Of a stretch of 31,755 nt of DNA, positions 2,416 to 21,061 are shown piece by piece. The notes beneath the pieces are model-generated. The model had not been told where the DNA came from. It searched no databases and was given only the letters and a program-made list of their open reading frames with translations. Made by a program: the position numbers and the translations under genes. This DNA comes from a virus, in IMG/VR virus record IMGVR_UViG_3300034066_000082, positions 1-31,755 of that record; one strand, given 5' to 3'. Each line of letters begins with the position of its first letter. The stretch's first letter is position 1.

Positions 2416-3425
2416 GTGAGCACCAGGTTAGATTTAACAAACGCAGGTAAGGCGGCTGCCGTCAATGGCCCACTTTCCCAGCGTTGCTGGATGCCGTCGT
2501 AAATGAGGACATCGCCAGTTGTCGGTGTTGGAGCGTAAACGTCGGACAGTTGGCCGACCAGCGGCTCAGCTTGAACCCTGACAAATACGGAGCCAGATCC
2601 TCCAGACCCAGCATTGACCACCGCAGCCACCACCACATGAGGGATTGGGGCTTGTGGCAGATTCTTTGTCAGGCCACCAGCGAATGACGGGTTGTAGTAC
2701 AGGATGTCGCCATCTGCCCAGACTTCGCCATAAGGCGTGCCTGTGGTGTTGAATCCTCGAACCAGTCCAAAGCTGGAGACCAGCCCGAAGTCGTTGTTTG
2801 CGATGGCCTCGGCAGCCACGCCCATGACAAGCTGGCCATTGGTCAAGCCGGTTGATGGTTTGCCCTTAAGCACGCCAGACGATCCGACAGCGCCATCGAA
2901 CATCACCAGTTGCCCTTTGGCAATGTTGGCCGAGGCCTTGATGTAATAGTACTGCGACTCGCCAATGGACTGGTTGACGTTTGGCGTCATGTCCAGGTTG
3001 AGCGTGTAGCCACCATTCCAGTGCAACCTGCCGACCTTCGTGGCCGGATCAGGCGCATTGGTGTTGAAGTCGATGTAGTCGGTGGTGACCGAGTTGTTGT
3101 TCTGCTCAACAGGCGCAAGAGCCAGCAGATTCAGCACCTGGGCCAGCCTGGGAATGGCATCCAGTGCTTGCTGGACCTTGGCATTCAGCACCGCATCATC
3201 GACCGCCGTGTCCTGGGCCAGTGCAGCAATCTGGGCCAGCGCCTCGTTGGCCGTTGCCGATGCTGTGTCGGCCTGGTACTCGAAGTCTGTGCCGGTGATC
3301 ACCTGCAGCTCGTCCACCACAGCAAACAGCAGCTCGAACTGCCTGATCTGCTGCTGGTCGGTCAGAAACTGCGCGAGCTGGTCGCGTGTCAGGTTCAGCC
3401 TGCGGGAGACGGGTGCGGTGGCCAT
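2400..3425 (-). CDS. Tail-associated structural protein, possible needle or fibre component
   Basis: This 341-residue protein starts directly at the stop of the gp10-like gene (TGATG overlap). Residues about 10-110 are strongly helical with heptad-like Leu/Ala/Gln spacing, suggesting a coiled-coil trimerisation region. Residues about 125-300 are beta-rich with Gly/Val/Asn segments (KGQLVMFDGAVGSS, GLVSSFGLVRGFNTTG), and a C-terminal portion reads TGDVLIYDGIQQRWESG, a motif common in phage fibre-type proteins. In P22 the gene after gp10 encodes the tail needle gp26 (233 aa, trimeric coiled coil). This gene occupies the same slot, but I see no sequence proof of homology. Confidence 0.72.
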   Translation of the reverse strand: MATAPVSRRLNLTRDQLAQFLTDQQQIRQFELLFAVVDELQVITGTDFEYQADTASATANEALAQIAALAQDTAVDDAVLNAKVQQALDAIPRLAQVLNLLALAPVEQNNNSVTTDYIDFNTNAPDPATKVGRLHWNGGYTLNLDMTPNVNQSIGESQYYYIKASANIAKGQLVMFDGAVGSSGVLKGKPSTGLTNGQLVMGVAAEAIANNDFGLVSSFGLVRGFNTTGTPYGEVWADGDILYYNPSFAGGLTKNLPQAPIPHVVVAAVVNAGSGGSGSVFVRVQAEPLVGQLSDVYAPTPTTGDVLIYDGIQQRWESGPLTAAALPAFVKSNLVLTWLSM

Positions 3426-4870
3426 CAGTACGCCAACGCCTCGATCTGGGCCTCAAGACGGGCAAACGACACATGGGCATCGCTGTCGCCACGGAATCGC
3501 TGGATGCGCCAGTTGCGCATGTGTCCCTGCTGGAACCAGGCCAGGCGCTTGGCAGTGTTGCCAATGGTGCCGACGCTGATGCTGCGGTCCTGGCTCCAGG
3601 ACAGGCCGTTGACGCTGTAGCTGGTGCTGATCTGCGGGTTCTTGCCCAGCGCCACGCTGCCGGTCAGTGCGACCAGCTCGAGGCGGTTGAAGATAGCGCC
3701 ATTGCCTTCGTTGTAGACGATGAGCGTGCCGAACTCCCAGCGCACCTGCTGTCCCCAGTGGTGGCCGGTGTCCTGCACCAGATAGCCGATGTTGCTGCTT
3801 TGCGGATCGCCGACCAGCCACTTATCGTAGACCCAAACCAGATTGCGTGCGCGGTACTGGCTGAAGCCGACCACAGCCGTGGTGAGCGTGAACCAGACGG
3901 GCTGCTCGAGCGCCTCGCTGGCCGATGCGTCGTAGACCACTGTGCGGTCTGGTAGGTGGACGTAGAGGTGCTGGTGCGCCTTGTCGTTGCGTGCCTCCAG
4001 CTTGACCTTGACAAGTTGCGCCTCGGTGTACTGCAGTAGCAGGGTGTCGATCTCCTGCGTGCTGATTTTCTGGGTGGTTGCTGCTGCGCCAAGATAGATG
4101 CCTGGCGCTTCGTTGCGGCCACCGCCCAGAAATGCGATGCGCTCAAGATAGGTGCAGCAAGCGTGCGTGCCAATCACACCTTTTTGAACTTGTGCGCCGT
4201 CAATCCGCTGAAAAGGAAACAGTGCGCCGCCCACGTTGTCAAACACCTCTTGCGTGTTGCTATTGAGGGCATAGACCTCGTTGCGCAGCTTGATGAGCGC
4301 AACCACAGGGTCTGGATCAACCTCGGAGCTGCCGTATTTCAGCGGATTGACCTGCATCGGGTCTGACAGCTCGGTGACGACCAAATTGGCACCGTCGGTG
4401 GTCATGAAGAAGCCATCCACCCATACCACATCAAGCACCACGCCAAGGTCTGGGTCGGTGACTTGCCGCAAAATGGGAGCCGTTGGGTTCCAGACCGATG
4501 TCGCTGTCGTGTTGACCGGAATCCAGTAGTACAGGCGGCCACCGGACGCAATGGCCAGCACATCGAAGCTGTAATCCATCGTCACCAGTTCGGTGGTTGG
4601 CCCACCAACATCGCCCAGCACGGTCACGGTGCCATTGCTGGCAACGGTCACCAGCTTGGTGCCCATGACCCGATAGCAGACGCCGTTCCAGTTGATGCCA
4701 CCACGGTCAACGCCTGGGCCTGTGCCGTTGGACACGATGCCGTCGCCAGGACGCAGAAAGCCATTGCTGATGCCAGACGCCTTTGGCACCGGCACCATGT
4801 TTACAGGGTATGCGGTGCGCAGTTCTGGCGTGTTGTCAGCGTAGATGCCGGAAAGGATTGGAACTTGCAT
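3425..4870 (-). CDS. P22 gp10-like packaged-DNA stabilisation (tail hub) protein
   Basis: A 481-residue protein matching the P22 gp10 family (472 aa), which forms a ring below gp4 and, with gp26, closes the channel after DNA packaging. Shared features include YPVNMVPVPKASG with a following G-FLRPGDGI segment near the N-terminus, a VCYRVMGTKL segment, the central QKGVIGTHACCTYLERIAFLG region (P22 has VQKGIAGTYCK), the HLYVHLPDRTVVYDAS segment (P22 has HLPRHVLVYDAS) and a C-terminal beta-propeller-like RNWRIQRFRG. It lies downstream of gp4 as in P22, separated by two small genes. The start has only a weak binding site, but the family begins here. Confidence 0.88.
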   Translation of the reverse strand: MQVPILSGIYADNTPELRTAYPVNMVPVPKASGISNGFLRPGDGIVSNGTGPGVDRGGINWNGVCYRVMGTKLVTVASNGTVTVLGDVGGPTTELVTMDYSFDVLAIASGGRLYYWIPVNTTATSVWNPTAPILRQVTDPDLGVVLDVVWVDGFFMTTDGANLVVTELSDPMQVNPLKYGSSEVDPDPVVALIKLRNEVYALNSNTQEVFDNVGGALFPFQRIDGAQVQKGVIGTHACCTYLERIAFLGGGRNEAPGIYLGAAATTQKISTQEIDTLLLQYTEAQLVKVKLEARNDKAHQHLYVHLPDRTVVYDASASEALEQPVWFTLTTAVVGFSQYRARNLVWVYDKWLVGDPQSSNIGYLVQDTGHHWGQQVRWEFGTLIVYNEGNGAIFNRLELVALTGSVALGKNPQISTSYSVNGLSWSQDRSISVGTIGNTAKRLAWFQQGHMRNWRIQRFRGDSDAHVSFARLEAQIEALAY

Positions 4871-11199: not shown

Positions 11200-12423
11200 T
11201 CACCACTTCTTTACGTTTGGCAAAGGCGTGAAGACGGCAGGCTTGGCCGCACTGGACCGCCGCACCGCCTCGCAGGCGTATCGCAAGGCGTCGATGACGT
11301 GGTTTTTCTTGTCCTCCAGGATCGGCAGAATCTTACCTGTCAGTGGGTCTTGCTTATAACTGTAAAGGGTCAGCTCGTCAATCGTGTGGATGCAGCGTGG
11401 GTGAACCACGATGTCGTAGTTCTTCAGAAACTCAATTCCTTCCTCGACCGACTTCGGGCCTTTGACCGCCGTCATGATCTTGGGAAAGCCGTTCTTCTTC
11501 ATGTGGCTGATGGTCTCCGGCCTGGCCGAGTCAGCCACGATGGGCCACTTCTCGGACTCTGGCACGGTCATGAACAGCTCAGGCGTGTTCACAATCTCGC
11601 AGCCCACCATGTAGGCTTCGTGGTCGATGTAGAGGGTGCGGCCAATGATGTGGCAGCGCACCAGCACGGTCGGATCAATGGCGAAGCCCCAGTCAGCGCC
11701 GAGCCTGTGGATGGCGTCTCGCGGTGCCTCGAACTCGTCGATCTTCCAGTTCTTAAAGACCCTGGCGCTGCTGTTGGTCAGGTACTGGCCCATCCAAACA
11801 TGCTGGTACTTGTCCGGATCGCGCCGCTTGTCGTACTCCATCTCGTCGCGCAGGACGTCTGGGAACCACGGGTTATCGGTGAAGTTGACCTTCAGGACTG
11901 TGGCGTCCTTCGGAGGCGTTGGGCCTCGCAGCAGGTGATCGACAGGATCGGTCTGCTGGCGAGGGTTCCAGGTGAACCACAGCTCGGACTGGGGCTTGCG
12001 AATGGTTGGCCGCAGCAGGTCCAGGCTGGTCTGGCTCAGGCTTTGGGCCTCCTCCACCCATGCGCAGTCGTAACCCTCCAGCGACTTGATAGAGTCGGCT
12101 GTGTGATTCTGCATGCCTTGGAAGATGATCATGCCGTCGCCCTTCTTGGACTTGATCACGGCTTCCTGCACCTCGAAGTAAGCGCCAGCGTTCATCTGCT
12201 CGATCTTTGTCTCGAGCAGGCGCTTGACAGACTGGGCCAGCGACTTCTGGACCTCGCGCACGCAGACGCTGCGCCGCTTCTGATCCATGATGTGGGCCTC
12301 AATCATCAGCTCGGCAAACATGTGGGACTTGCCGGAGCCGCGTCCACCCCATGCGCCTTTGTACCGGCTGGCCTCCATCAGAGGCAGCGCCCATTCTGGG
12401 GTTTGGAGCTGCAGGACGGTCAT
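11200..12423 (-). CDS. terL: Terminase large subunit (packaging ATPase/nuclease)
   Basis: A 407-residue protein of the PBSX/Terminase_3 type. The ATPase domain shows Walker A GGRGSGKS at residues 26-33, Walker B YDCAWVEEA with catalytic Glu about 125, and the coupling motif WNPR at 152-155. The RNase H-like nuclease domain shows the expected acidic residues in GADWG (Asp 244), ADSARPE (Asp 298) and HVIDALRYA (Asp 378). It drives DNA into the procapsid through the portal and cuts the concatemer. The ATG overlaps the terS stop as ATGA. Length is slightly below the usual 420-500 but all motifs are present. Confidence 0.95.
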   Translation of the reverse strand: MTVLQLQTPEWALPLMEASRYKGAWGGRGSGKSHMFAELMIEAHIMDQKRRSVCVREVQKSLAQSVKRLLETKIEQMNAGAYFEVQEAVIKSKKGDGMIIFQGMQNHTADSIKSLEGYDCAWVEEAQSLSQTSLDLLRPTIRKPQSELWFTWNPRQQTDPVDHLLRGPTPPKDATVLKVNFTDNPWFPDVLRDEMEYDKRRDPDKYQHVWMGQYLTNSSARVFKNWKIDEFEAPRDAIHRLGADWGFAIDPTVLVRCHIIGRTLYIDHEAYMVGCEIVNTPELFMTVPESEKWPIVADSARPETISHMKKNGFPKIMTAVKGPKSVEEGIEFLKNYDIVVHPRCIHTIDELTLYSYKQDPLTGKILPILEDKKNHVIDALRYACEAVRRSSAAKPAVFTPLPNVKKW

Positions 12424-12851
12424 GCCTTGACGACCACGCGCTTGATCTCCCTGAACTCCAGAGGCGCACCATCAGCGCCTGTAACTTCGTGCTTTTGGGT
12501 TTCTGCCCACCGCATCTGAGTCTTGGACCACCAGATCATGGCCGCCGTGTCGCCGCCCATTGCCTTCTGGAACAGGGTCCGACCGACGCCAGAGTTGGCC
12601 TTGGCCTTGCCTGCCACCAGCTCGGTGGCAAAGTGCTTGCGCAGCGTGTCGGTGTCAATGCCGCCGCGCACCAGGACTGCGATCTGCTCGATTGGCAGGC
12701 CGTAGCCTGACATTGCCTCGACCTGTTTGCGCTCTGCGTCGGTCGGCTCGAAGGCCATCCGACCAGCGTTTTCCCGTGCACCGCCGTTGTTTTTCCGGCC
12801 ATCCGGCTTTTTTAGAACCGATTTTTCAATTGTGGGTTTTCGTGCTGCCAT
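12420..12851 (-). CDS. terS: Terminase small subunit
   Basis: A 143-residue protein directly upstream of terL with ATGA overlap. The N-terminus is basic and disordered (KKPDGRKNNGGARENAGR). It is followed by a helix-turn-helix-like region (DAERKQVEAMSGYGLPIEQI with a following TDTLRKHFATEL) expected to bind the packaging site, and then a helical oligomerisation part including AMGGDTAAMIWWSKTQM. This arrangement is characteristic of small terminases that recognise pac/cos DNA and hand it to TerL. GGAGG lies 6 bases before the ATG. It overlaps the 3' end of the methyltransferase gene by 26 bases. Confidence 0.88.
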   Translation of the reverse strand: MAARKPTIEKSVLKKPDGRKNNGGARENAGRMAFEPTDAERKQVEAMSGYGLPIEQIAVLVRGGIDTDTLRKHFATELVAGKAKANSGVGRTLFQKAMGGDTAAMIWWSKTQMRWAETQKHEVTGADGAPLEFREIKRVVVKA

Positions 12852-14118
12852 CTTTAACCTCCGCGAAAGGTTGTCCAGTTTCTGCGTGAACTGCGATTTT
12901 GCCTGTGAAGTCCTGCCAGCGTTTCACGATGACGTCGCAGTAGCGTGGGTCCAGTTCCATGAGCAAGGCAGTGCGGCCGTTCTTCTCGGCTGCGATCAGG
13001 GTTGTGCCGGAGCCGCCAAACAGATCAAGAACTACATCGTGTCCTTTGCTACTGTTCTGGATCGGAATCTCTACCAACTCGACAGGCTTCATTGTCGGGT
13101 GCAGTTTTGACTGCATTGGTTTGTCAACGTTCCAGATGCTGAATTTGTTTCTGTCGCCATACCAAGGATGGCCTGCCCCATCCTTCCATCCATATAACAC
13201 CGGCTCGTGTTTGTAGTGGTAATCAGCACGCCCCAAAACGTGATTGTTTTTCACCCAAATTAACTCATGACGCACAGGCAGGCACGCTTCCTGCATCATC
13301 ATCATCATCATCATCTGCTCACCGCCCTGTGGCGCAAACACGTAGAACGGTGAGCCTGGTTTCATTGCGACAAACATTGAAGAAAACGCTGCAAGGAAAA
13401 ATTCTTTCAGTTCGTTGCCTTGTAAGTGATCGTTTTTAATCGGAGTCTGAATTCTATTTCCCCGGCCAGACGCATTCAGACTCCGATTCTTGTCGGCATA
13501 GCTGACGCCATAAGGCGGGTCTGTGACAACAAGATCGGCAAACTGCCCAGCAAGCAGCTTGTCCATCGCATCCACGCTGGTGCTGTCGCCGCACATCAGC
13601 CGGTGCTTTCCCATCACCCAGACGTCGCCTGGAACCGTGACAGGGTTTTCCTGCACGGAAGGAGCATCGTCAGGATCGGTGAGGCCGTCTGTGCCTTGCA
13701 CCGGCATCAGCGCCGCGATCTCCTCATCTGTGAACCCCACCAAGTCCAGATCAAACCCAAGATCACCCAGCTCTCCCAGCTCAAGCGCCAGCAGCTCGTT
13801 GTCCCAGCCAGCGTTCAGCGCCAGCTTGTTGTCAGCAATGACGTAGGCACGTTTCTGGGCATCGGTCCAGCCTGCCGCGACCATGACCGGCAATGATGCC
13901 ATGCCGAGTTTGCGAGCCGCCATTACGCGACCATGACCGGCAATGATGCTGCCGGACTCGTCCACCAGGACTGCGGTCGTGAAGCCCCACTCACGGATGC
14001 TGGCCGCGATCTGGGCCACCTGCTCCTCGCTGTGGGTGCGCGAGTTCTTGGCGTAGGGCACCAGCTTTTCGATGGGCCACTGCTCTACCTTATCGGCTGG
14101 ATTTGGCTTTGCTGCCAT
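12826..14118 (-). CDS. ParB-domain / DNA methyltransferase fusion (N6-adenine or N4-cytosine type)
   Basis: A 430-residue two-domain protein. Residues about 12-110 form a ParB/sulfiredoxin-like N-terminal domain with IIAGHGRVMAARKLG at 58-72. Residues about 165-410 form a methyltransferase with catalytic motif TDPPYGVSY (DPPY 200-203), HPTMKPVEL (340-348), and AdoMet motif DLFGGSGTT (365-373); the order DPPY before the AdoMet site marks the beta class. Such fusions methylate phage DNA, possibly against host restriction or to mark packaging sites. Oddities are a run of seven Met at 269-275, a 15-bp perfect inverted repeat, and a 24-bp repeat read in two frames. The 3' part looks AT-richer than the ParB part. 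Confidence 0.93.
   Translation of the reverse strand: MAAKPNPADKVEQWPIEKLVPYAKNSRTHSEEQVAQIAASIREWGFTTAVLVDESGSIIAGHGRVMAARKLGMASLPVMVAAGWTDAQKRAYVIADNKLALNAGWDNELLALELGELGDLGFDLDLVGFTDEEIAALMPVQGTDGLTDPDDAPSVQENPVTVPGDVWVMGKHRLMCGDSTSVDAMDKLLAGQFADLVVTDPPYGVSYADKNRSLNASGRGNRIQTPIKNDHLQGNELKEFFLAAFSSMFVAMKPGSPFYVFAPQGGEQMMMMMMMQEACLPVRHELIWVKNNHVLGRADYHYKHEPVLYGWKDGAGHPWYGDRNKFSIWNVDKPMQSKLHPTMKPVELVEIPIQNSSKGHDVVLDLFGGSGTTLIAAEKNGRTALLMELDPRYCDVIVKRWQDFTGKIAVHAETGQPFAEVKDGSTKTHN
13294..13314. repeat. (CAT)7 microsatellite inside the methyltransferase gene
   Basis: Seven perfect copies of CAT on the plus strand read as seven ATG codons (Met 269-275) on the coding strand. Copy-number change would alter the Met run without frameshift. 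It falls in a variable part of the methyltransferase between catalytic core motifs. Confidence 0.95.
13438..13488. repeat. 15-bp perfect inverted repeat in the methyltransferase gene
   Basis: The arms 13438-13452 (AATCGGAGTCTGAAT) and 13474-13488 are exact reverse complements, separated by 21 bases. Each arm contains GAGTC/GACTC. They encode residues about 210-228, just after the DPPY motif. The mRNA could form a stable hairpin here. Confidence 0.92.
13876..13949. repeat. 24-bp direct repeat within the ParB domain, two copies in different frames
   Basis: Positions 13876-13899 and 13926-13949 are identical over 24 bases, with starts 50 bases apart. Because 50 is not a multiple of three, the same DNA is translated as part of SIIAGHGR in one copy and ASLPVMVA in the other. 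Confidence 0.93.
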
Positions 14119-20029: not shown

Positions 20030-21061
20030 ATGAAGATACCCGAGTCAGAGCATACCATCCAGGCGCTGATTGACAAAGCGCACGAAGCAAAGGCCGAGCA
20101 GCCAAGGGGCCACATGGGCTGCAGCCAGCTTGGCCACGCATGCGACCGCTGGCTGTGGCTGAGTTTTCGCTGGGCCGTGCAGCCCAAGTTCCCTGGCCGC
20201 ATCCTGCGCCTGTTCAGGCGTGGCCAGATGGAGGAGGCCACCATCGTGTCGGACCTGCGCGCCATCGGCCTCGATGTGCGTGGCTCAGGCAAACAGCAGA
20301 CGCGCGTGGACTTCGGCTGCCATGTGTCCGGCAGCCTGGACGCCATCATCGAGTCTGGCGTGCCAGAAGCGCCAAAGAAGCGCCACATTGCCGAGTTCAA
20401 GACCCACAGCAAAAAGTCATTTGACGACCTGCTCAAAGCTGGCTCGGTGGCCAGTTCCAAGCCTGAACACTTCGTCCAGATGCAGCTTTACATGCACGGC
20501 ACCGAGATTGATCGGGCCTTGTACGTGGCGGTCTGCAAGGATGACGACCGCATCTACACCGAGCGCGTGCGATACGACCAGGTGGTGGCTGAGAAGTACA
20601 TTGACCGCGGCCACCGTCTGGCGATGGAAGACCGCATGCCGCCACCGATCAGCACCGATCCATCTTGGTATCAGTGCAAGTTCTGCGATGCGCATGATTT
20701 CTGCCACCAGAGCAAGACCACCCAGCATGTGAACTGCCGCACCTGCGCCCACAGCACGGCCAAGTCGGACAGCACCTGGCATTGCGCCAAGTGGGATGAC
20801 ACGATACCGCTGGAGGCCCAGCGCACCGGATGCGAGAGCCATGTCCTGCATCCCGACTTGGTGCCTTGGCAGCGCAAGGACGGGCCGGACGAGTGGACGG
20901 CTGTGTATGAGATCAATGGCGTGAATCTGGCCAATGGCGATCCTGAGCAAGAGGGTGTCTACGGCTCCAAAGAGTTGCTGGCCAATGCCGCTGCCTGCGC
21001 CAGCGGTGATTCGTTCATCGCCGAGATGCGCAAGGATTTTGGCGGGAGGATTGTCGGATGA
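20030..21061 (+). CDS. PD-(D/E)XK nuclease, RecB/Cas4-like, with Fe-S-type cysteines and extra zinc ribbon
   Basis: A 343-residue nuclease. The catalytic core shows GSLDA (Asp 104), AEFKT (Glu 122, Lys 124) and QMQLY (150-154), the RecB-family Q-x-x-x-Y-like motif. Cys 31 or 38 near the N-terminus and CKFCDAHDFC (216, 219, 225; CxxC-x5-C) reproduce the one-plus-three cysteine plan of the 4Fe-4S staple in Cas4/AddB nucleases. After it comes a second Cys set (236, 239, 252, 268) that could bind zinc. It probably resects DNA ends to make ssDNA for the Sak4/DUF669 pair. AAAAGGAG precedes the ATG. No helicase domain is fused; a helicase is encoded downstream. Confidence 0.88.
   Translation: MKIPESEHTIQALIDKAHEAKAEQPRGHMGCSQLGHACDRWLWLSFRWAVQPKFPGRILRLFRRGQMEEATIVSDLRAIGLDVRGSGKQQTRVDFGCHVSGSLDAIIESGVPEAPKKRHIAEFKTHSKKSFDDLLKAGSVASSKPEHFVQMQLYMHGTEIDRALYVAVCKDDDRIYTERVRYDQVVAEKYIDRGHRLAMEDRMPPPISTDPSWYQCKFCDAHDFCHQSKTTQHVNCRTCAHSTAKSDSTWHCAKWDDTIPLEAQRTGCESHVLHPDLVPWQRKDGPDEWTAVYEINGVNLANGDPEQEGVYGSKELLANAAACASGDSFIAEMRKDFGGRIVG

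Follow-up and report, generated by a model that had tools for sequence, protein, structure and literature searches.

Switching of methyltransferases by repeat number is established in bacteria. The mod genes of phasevarions carry many short repeat units. In the Type III mod genes of Haemophilus, Neisseria and Moraxella, expression of the methyltransferase is turned ON or OFF through the number of repeats within the coding sequence (PMC13076061). The locus described here would work in the same way, but phasevarion genes are bacterial restriction-modification genes, while here the gene belongs to a phage and the repeat has two copies at a 50-bp period that encode two parts of one domain. The neighbours are small-terminase-like and replication genes, with no partner restriction gene among them, and the repeat is a two-copy repeat of 24 bp and not an array of many short units.

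The pneumococcal capsule is a further case. Waite and colleagues (2001, 2003) reportedly observed that capsule genes are frameshifted by a short duplication and restored by the loss of one copy, and these duplications are said to arise at varying places. For the tts gene, cap8E and the type 3 locus, phase variation is attributed to spontaneous sequence duplication (PMC4022640). Frameshift by a short duplication and reversal by copy loss would be common to both systems, the reversal here being one that we infer. In contrast to the capsule genes, a pre-existing 24-bp pair fixes the place and the size of the change in the phage gene and is reused by lineages. Type I hsdS systems exchange target-recognition segments, and the phage gene resembles them in having a common part and exchanged central segments. 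However, the exchange is seen here between genomes and by comparison only, and no shuffling within a genome was found. The phage family phrog_498 shares the domains of the gene, and in two of its records (MW202867, MW202613) a gene for a DNA-binding domain and a terminase gene follow, but most relatives are without the second repeat copy and without length changes. Within the portions of articles reached by a full-text literature search, no phage-carried methyltransferase switched through a coding direct repeat was found.

The methyltransferase gene and its two-frame repeat

The window is the whole virus record IMGVR_UViG_3300034066_000082, 31,755 bases long. Its methyltransferase gene matches the phrog_498 'DNA methyltransferase' family over residues 4-426 with an E value of 1.1e-157. 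The methylase domain scores 91.6 bits with PF01555 (cut-off 26.7) and contains a DPPY motif and an FGGSG motif. The N-terminal domain scores 25.1 bits with PF02195, just under the Pfam cut-off of 26.3, and is matched strongly by ParB-like PHROGs. The gene belongs to the phrog_498 / N6_N4 methylases with a ParB-like N-terminus, and its methylation activity is putative. Genes for a portal protein, a head scaffolding protein and a primase/helicase-like protein lie near it. The features of the region are as follows.

12420..12851, minus strand: terminase small subunit-like gene (phrog_309), the next gene, with a 26-bp overlap with the end of the methyltransferase gene
12826..14118, minus strand: methyltransferase gene, 430 aa, ParB_N-like N-terminal domain fused to an N6_N4 DNA methylase (phrog_498)
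12925..13536, minus strand: N6_N4 methylase domain, residues 195-398
13034..13564, minus strand: exchanged central segment, about codons 186-361, no blastn match to the related contig L125, lower G+C
13873..14091, minus strand: ParB_N-like domain, residues 10-82
13876..13899, minus strand: R2, the derived copy, encoding ASLPVMVA in another frame than R1
13900..13925, minus strand: 26-bp spacer between R1 and R2; either copy plus the spacer makes a 50-bp unit
13926..13949, minus strand: R1, the first copy in the gene and the ancestral one, encoding IIAGHGR

The sequence-only reading had pointed to two identical 24-base stretches, 50 bases apart, that are used in two frames of one ParB-type domain. 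Both parts of this description hold: the copies are exact, their starts are 50 bp apart, and they encode the two peptides listed above. Chance was considered as a source of the identity. When codons were redrawn from the usage of 13 window ORFs and the protein was kept, 24/24 identity occurred in 0/400,000 trials and at least 20/24 at a frequency of 1.35e-4, and an exact 24-bp repeat of any kind occurred in 0/300 codon-redrawn whole genes. Chance identity of R1 and R2 is therefore excluded. The pair is the only direct-repeat family of at least 14 bp found between positions 13000 and 15000, and in the whole record no place besides R1 and R2 lies within three mismatches of the 24-mer. The exact 24-mer is present in 61 IMG/VR stretches, many of which have two or three copies at the 50-bp period, and a 24/24 pair also occurs in the GenBank virus genome MW202867. 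Since a second contig of the window's virus (L109) has the same pair, over 9,122 aligned bases, misassembly of the window's own pair is unlikely. No match to the repeat lineage was obtained when one genome from each of 84,980 species of bacteria and archaea was searched with two sequence patterns; a plasmid search returned three matches, all distant (66-70% identity). A degenerate search for the 50-bp pair outside the lineage yielded the same 50 stretches as the stricter search and no second origin.

Aligned relatives indicate which copy came first. Among 75 relatives without the pair, the R1 site agrees with the 24-mer at 20/24 or better in 55, a figure inflated by contigs in this set that were fetched for an exact single 24-mer, while the R2 site reaches at most 19/24 in 73 and mostly encodes xxVPVMVA. 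Because repeat-free relatives keep R1, and not R2, near the 24-mer, R1 is taken as ancestral and R2 as derived. The idea of a local conversion or template switch that happened to keep function, raised in the sequence-only reading, is supported by this comparison, in which R2 has the appearance of a brief stretch copied from R1. In near kin, 11 bp of the R2 site (GATCAAGTCCCGGTCATGGTGGCC) already match R1. The repeat would have been born when R1, with its conserved IIAGHGR motif, was copied onto an R2 site that beforehand had a chance match of about 11 bp to it (CCGGTCATGGT).

Length cycling or conversion may then keep the copies alike, at a sequence that is workable in both frames. In two genomes variants are common to both copies (both begin with GAATC in L158 and both end with CGCC in L161), as conversion or length cycling would produce; in other genomes (L150, L157) the copies have diverged. 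In 38 distinct genes of two-copy length, codon homozygosity amounts to 0.847 for R1 and 0.735 for R2, compared with 0.722 upstream of R1 and 0.641 downstream; the spacer, at 0.478, varies most. The value for R2 hardly exceeds that for the upstream region. R2 also keeps atypical codons: TTG stands for Leu in 32/33 and TCA for Ser in 31/32 cases, and these codons make up 14% and 16% in the window's ORFs.

Copy number of the 50-bp unit among relatives

The distance from the AGHG motif to the Y..ADN motif was measured at one locus per contig, which was possible for 148/181 loci with the window included; the copy states are assembly calls from metagenomes. Only three values occur: 52 bp in 4 loci, 102 bp in 136 and 152 bp in 8. 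In the repeat lineage they correspond to one, two and three repeat copies. Identity between R1 and R2 is bimodal among the 136 loci with 102-bp spacing, with 5-19/24 in 92 and 21-24/24 in 44, and all of the 92 measured repeat-free loci are in register. As to the 33 loci that were not measurable, 30 are in register without the repeat (one soon runs off its contig), L095 and L142 end inside the site, and L148 is not the gene. The repeat thus appears to be a copy-number hotspot at which a 50-bp unit is gained and lost, a feature that had gone unnoticed in the sequence-only reading.

An odd copy number is found in 12/56 measured repeat-lineage loci and in 0/92 repeat-free loci, one-copy loci being placed in the repeat lineage by an intact 24-mer-like site; the Fisher value of 3.8e-6 is descriptive only, because the contigs are related. 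All 12 carry the 24-mer or, in one-copy loci, a 23/24 or 22/24 form of it. Three-copy loci alone gave 8/52 with and 0/75 without the repeat in an earlier set (p 5.6e-4). Some contigs were fetched for the repeat itself and one search aimed at one-copy junctions, so that odd-copy frequencies are to be read from two upstream patterns that are blind to copy number. The first pattern (57/61 contigs measured) gave 36 loci with two copies, 7 with three, 3 with one and 11 without the repeat. With the second (55/78 measured) the corresponding numbers are 27, 5, 4 and 19; its 23 unmeasured contigs comprise 22 in register without the repeat and one that ends in R1. Odd-copy states make up 10/46 and 9/36 of the measured repeat-lineage loci in these two samples, which overlap.

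The eight three-copy contigs come from eight datasets. In 8/8 the 26-bp spacer is duplicated exactly and a TGA stands in frame after R2. As the spacer is duplicated too, the insertion is one precise 50-bp unit. The window's own spacer begins with TAATG; a third copy would therefore place a TAA after R2, overlapping an ATG in the methyltransferase frame.

Close relatives differ by single units. L101 (three copies) and L118 (two copies), which are from different metagenomes, are separated by four substitutions and one 50-bp unit over 8,932 bp, the extra unit lying at 5374-5423 in L101. L122 (three) and L107 (two) align over 1,363 bp, with 18 mismatches and a single gap of 50 bp. L163, with one copy, aligns to the two-copy MW202867, a GenBank record from Manatee Spring, over 2,205 bp at 98.4%, and a further 1,071 aligned bp contain 46 mismatches and one 50-bp gap. 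A tree of 900 bp of the downstream region with 74 rows requires 8 changes for the 8 three-copy rows, at least 6 of them by well-supported branches, and 2 changes for the 3 one-copy rows then known; the tree is a quick one that drew program warnings about branch length and compositional unevenness, and the gene recombines. As far as the sequence goes, the downstream methyltransferase frame is open in 12/12 odd-copy contigs, with 9 reaching a stop after 315-374 codons and 3 running off the contig. Hence, the odd-copy genes are not old pseudogenes.

A candidate switch and its alternatives

We consider an ON/OFF switch in the phage's own methyltransferase, driven by slippage or short-homology recombination, to be the best reading of these sequences, with a probability of about 0.66. 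Two copies would keep the gene in frame (ON). Mispairing of the copies would add a 50-bp unit, giving three copies, or remove one, leaving a single copy. Since 50 is not a multiple of three, one or three copies shift the frame inside the ParB-like domain, which would turn the enzyme OFF; the three-copy product is predicted to end just after R2. Three copies could return precisely to two by loss of a unit. One copy is a probable dead end, because no second repeat is left for pairing. Slippage or short-homology recombination would explain why the steps are of 50 bp and why they are confined to the repeat lineage; no DNA hairpin that could aid slippage stands out on either strand (z -1.11 and -0.35). 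The locus shares with phase-variable genes a repeat whose length changes alter the frame (50-bp steps, 12/56 out of frame) and the occurrence of both states in close genomes, as in L101 and L118. A possible benefit is bet-hedging, by which the methylation of phage DNA would vary in the face of hosts with restriction enzymes that leave methylated DNA alone and hosts with enzymes that cut it. Near kin exist without the repeat, and these viruses can therefore do without the switch. If the reading is true, the locus is an example, open to test, of a virus that hedges how its own DNA is methylated, and one DNA word serves two reading frames of one domain within the switch. It would also provide a signature to seek elsewhere, namely a direct repeat within a gene, at a spacing that is not a multiple of three and with length variants.

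The main biological rival is a neutral hotspot in a dispensable gene. Here the copying of R1 onto R2 would be accidental, the slippage a side effect, and the odd-copy genes recent knock-outs; the high frequency of odd-copy states could indeed mean that the gene is dispensable. The odd-copy states sit at tree tips, and the 11 repeat-free contigs of the first upstream-pattern set point in the same direction. However, R1 and R2 still match at 21-24/24 in 44 loci, the spacer between them being the least conserved stretch, and the atypical TTG and TCA codons persist in R2. Conversion alone could explain both of these observations. The downstream frames that are open in every odd-copy locus speak against neutrality as well, and on balance we regard a neutral hotspot as unlikely. 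The chief technical worry is that only the two-copy repeat is real and that contigs with one or three copies arose through faulty assembly or amplification at so short a repeat. Copies of 24 bp are within reach of small k-mers, L095 and the circular contig L111/L116 end exactly on the last base of the repeat, and L142 ends inside R1. Contig ends on an exact repeat boundary would also fit a graph branch between real variants in a sample, which is suggestive only. Against an artefact stand the one-copy contigs L141 and L147, which come from two metagenomes and are identical over 2,174 bp, the origin of the three-copy contigs in as many datasets as there are contigs, and the GenBank record MW202867 together with repeated independent assemblies. 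Furthermore, 138 loci covering 964 kb hold 5 other exact direct repeats of at least 20 bp at an offset of 20-200 bp. There is hence no general excess of tandem duplication, though the chance to detect one is small. Taken together, errors of this kind are improbable as the source of the length variants.

Other explanations give the copies or the third unit a different role. Three copies might not be an off state: a TGATG after R2 allows a stop and restart that would split the product into a short ParB-like peptide and a methyltransferase lacking residues 1-65, and copy number would then change the targeting of the enzyme. This TGATG is present in 8/8 three-copy contigs with its ATG in the methyltransferase frame, and the methylase domain (residues 195-398) lies wholly downstream. 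The motif is, however, a simple consequence of the Val-Met codons that follow R1, a good ribosome-binding site is not seen, and one-copy contigs are without such a restart. We therefore judge a split enzyme very improbable. Translational bypass, known from T4 gene 60, would carry ribosomes across the 50-nt gap from a take-off stretch to an identical landing stretch and leave the three-copy protein unchanged. The gap, which opens with a stop and is flanked by identical stretches of 24 nt, would suit it, but the L101 RNA folds no better over its three copies than shuffled sequences do (z -0.05), and hopping could not rescue the one-copy states; bypass is hardly conceivable here. The sequence-only reading had also entertained selection at the DNA level for a binding site. 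R1 and R2 might bind the ParB-like protein or serve terminase packaging near the small-terminase gene, as conserved and evenly spaced repeats in a ParB-domain gene adjoining a terminase gene might suggest. This proposal is not supported by the comparison with near kin, several of which are without R2 (e.g. L121, L136, L151-L154). The pair is absent from 75, later 92, measured relatives including close kin, and near kin of the same gene order are among the contigs without it (11/57 in the first pattern). In MW202613, which has the same gene order, an R1-type motif was not found by the pattern used. Conservation of R1 follows from the protein motif, no fold or symmetry stands out, and a DNA site is extremely unlikely.

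The central segment and other observations

While the ParB-repeat part is common to these viruses, the central methyltransferase segment appears, by comparison of the genomes, to be swapped between otherwise similar ones. Against L125, the window gene is 87% identical before codons 186-361 and about 95.5% after them. The G+C content of the window bins is 46.5-49.5% in 13000-13499 and 60.5-63.5% in 13500-14099. In 677/990 pairs of repeat-lineage genes the C-terminal part is less than 60% identical, yet the median identity of the N-terminal part is 97.7% (range 79.5-100%). At 70% identity the central segment falls into 10 types in 48 proteins. DPPY and F.G.G-type motifs were found in each of the 10 types, with one member checked per type and SPPY in one of them. 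Five of these types include odd-copy states.

A broader reading joins both kinds of variation. The locus may be a phage contingency locus in which a two-frame repeat, kept by selection, flips the methyltransferase by one 50-bp unit, and recombination swaps a central segment that probably chooses the target. Populations would then hedge whether and where their genomes are methylated against opposing restriction systems. We put this forward tentatively, at somewhat less than even odds.

Several further features were seen in the window and its relatives. Inside the exchanged segment lies a 15-bp perfect inverted repeat (13438-13452 and 13474-13488) with a 21-nt loop. At 13294-13314 the methyltransferase gene contains seven CAT, that is ATG on the gene strand, encoding seven Met; L157 has nine units here, L109 and L002 have seven, and the run thus varies in length while staying in frame. 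In L102, positions 3380-3600 hold R1 followed by an unrelated continuation (LPEVPCIRLGHL and beyond), which marks either a recombinant or a chimeric assembly. Elsewhere in the window, a PAPS-reductase-like gene (phrog_424) at 17004-17858 matches the PADLOC SspD model with an E value of 1.3e-19, and a Cas4-domain exonuclease-like gene (phrog_1990) is located at 20030-21061.
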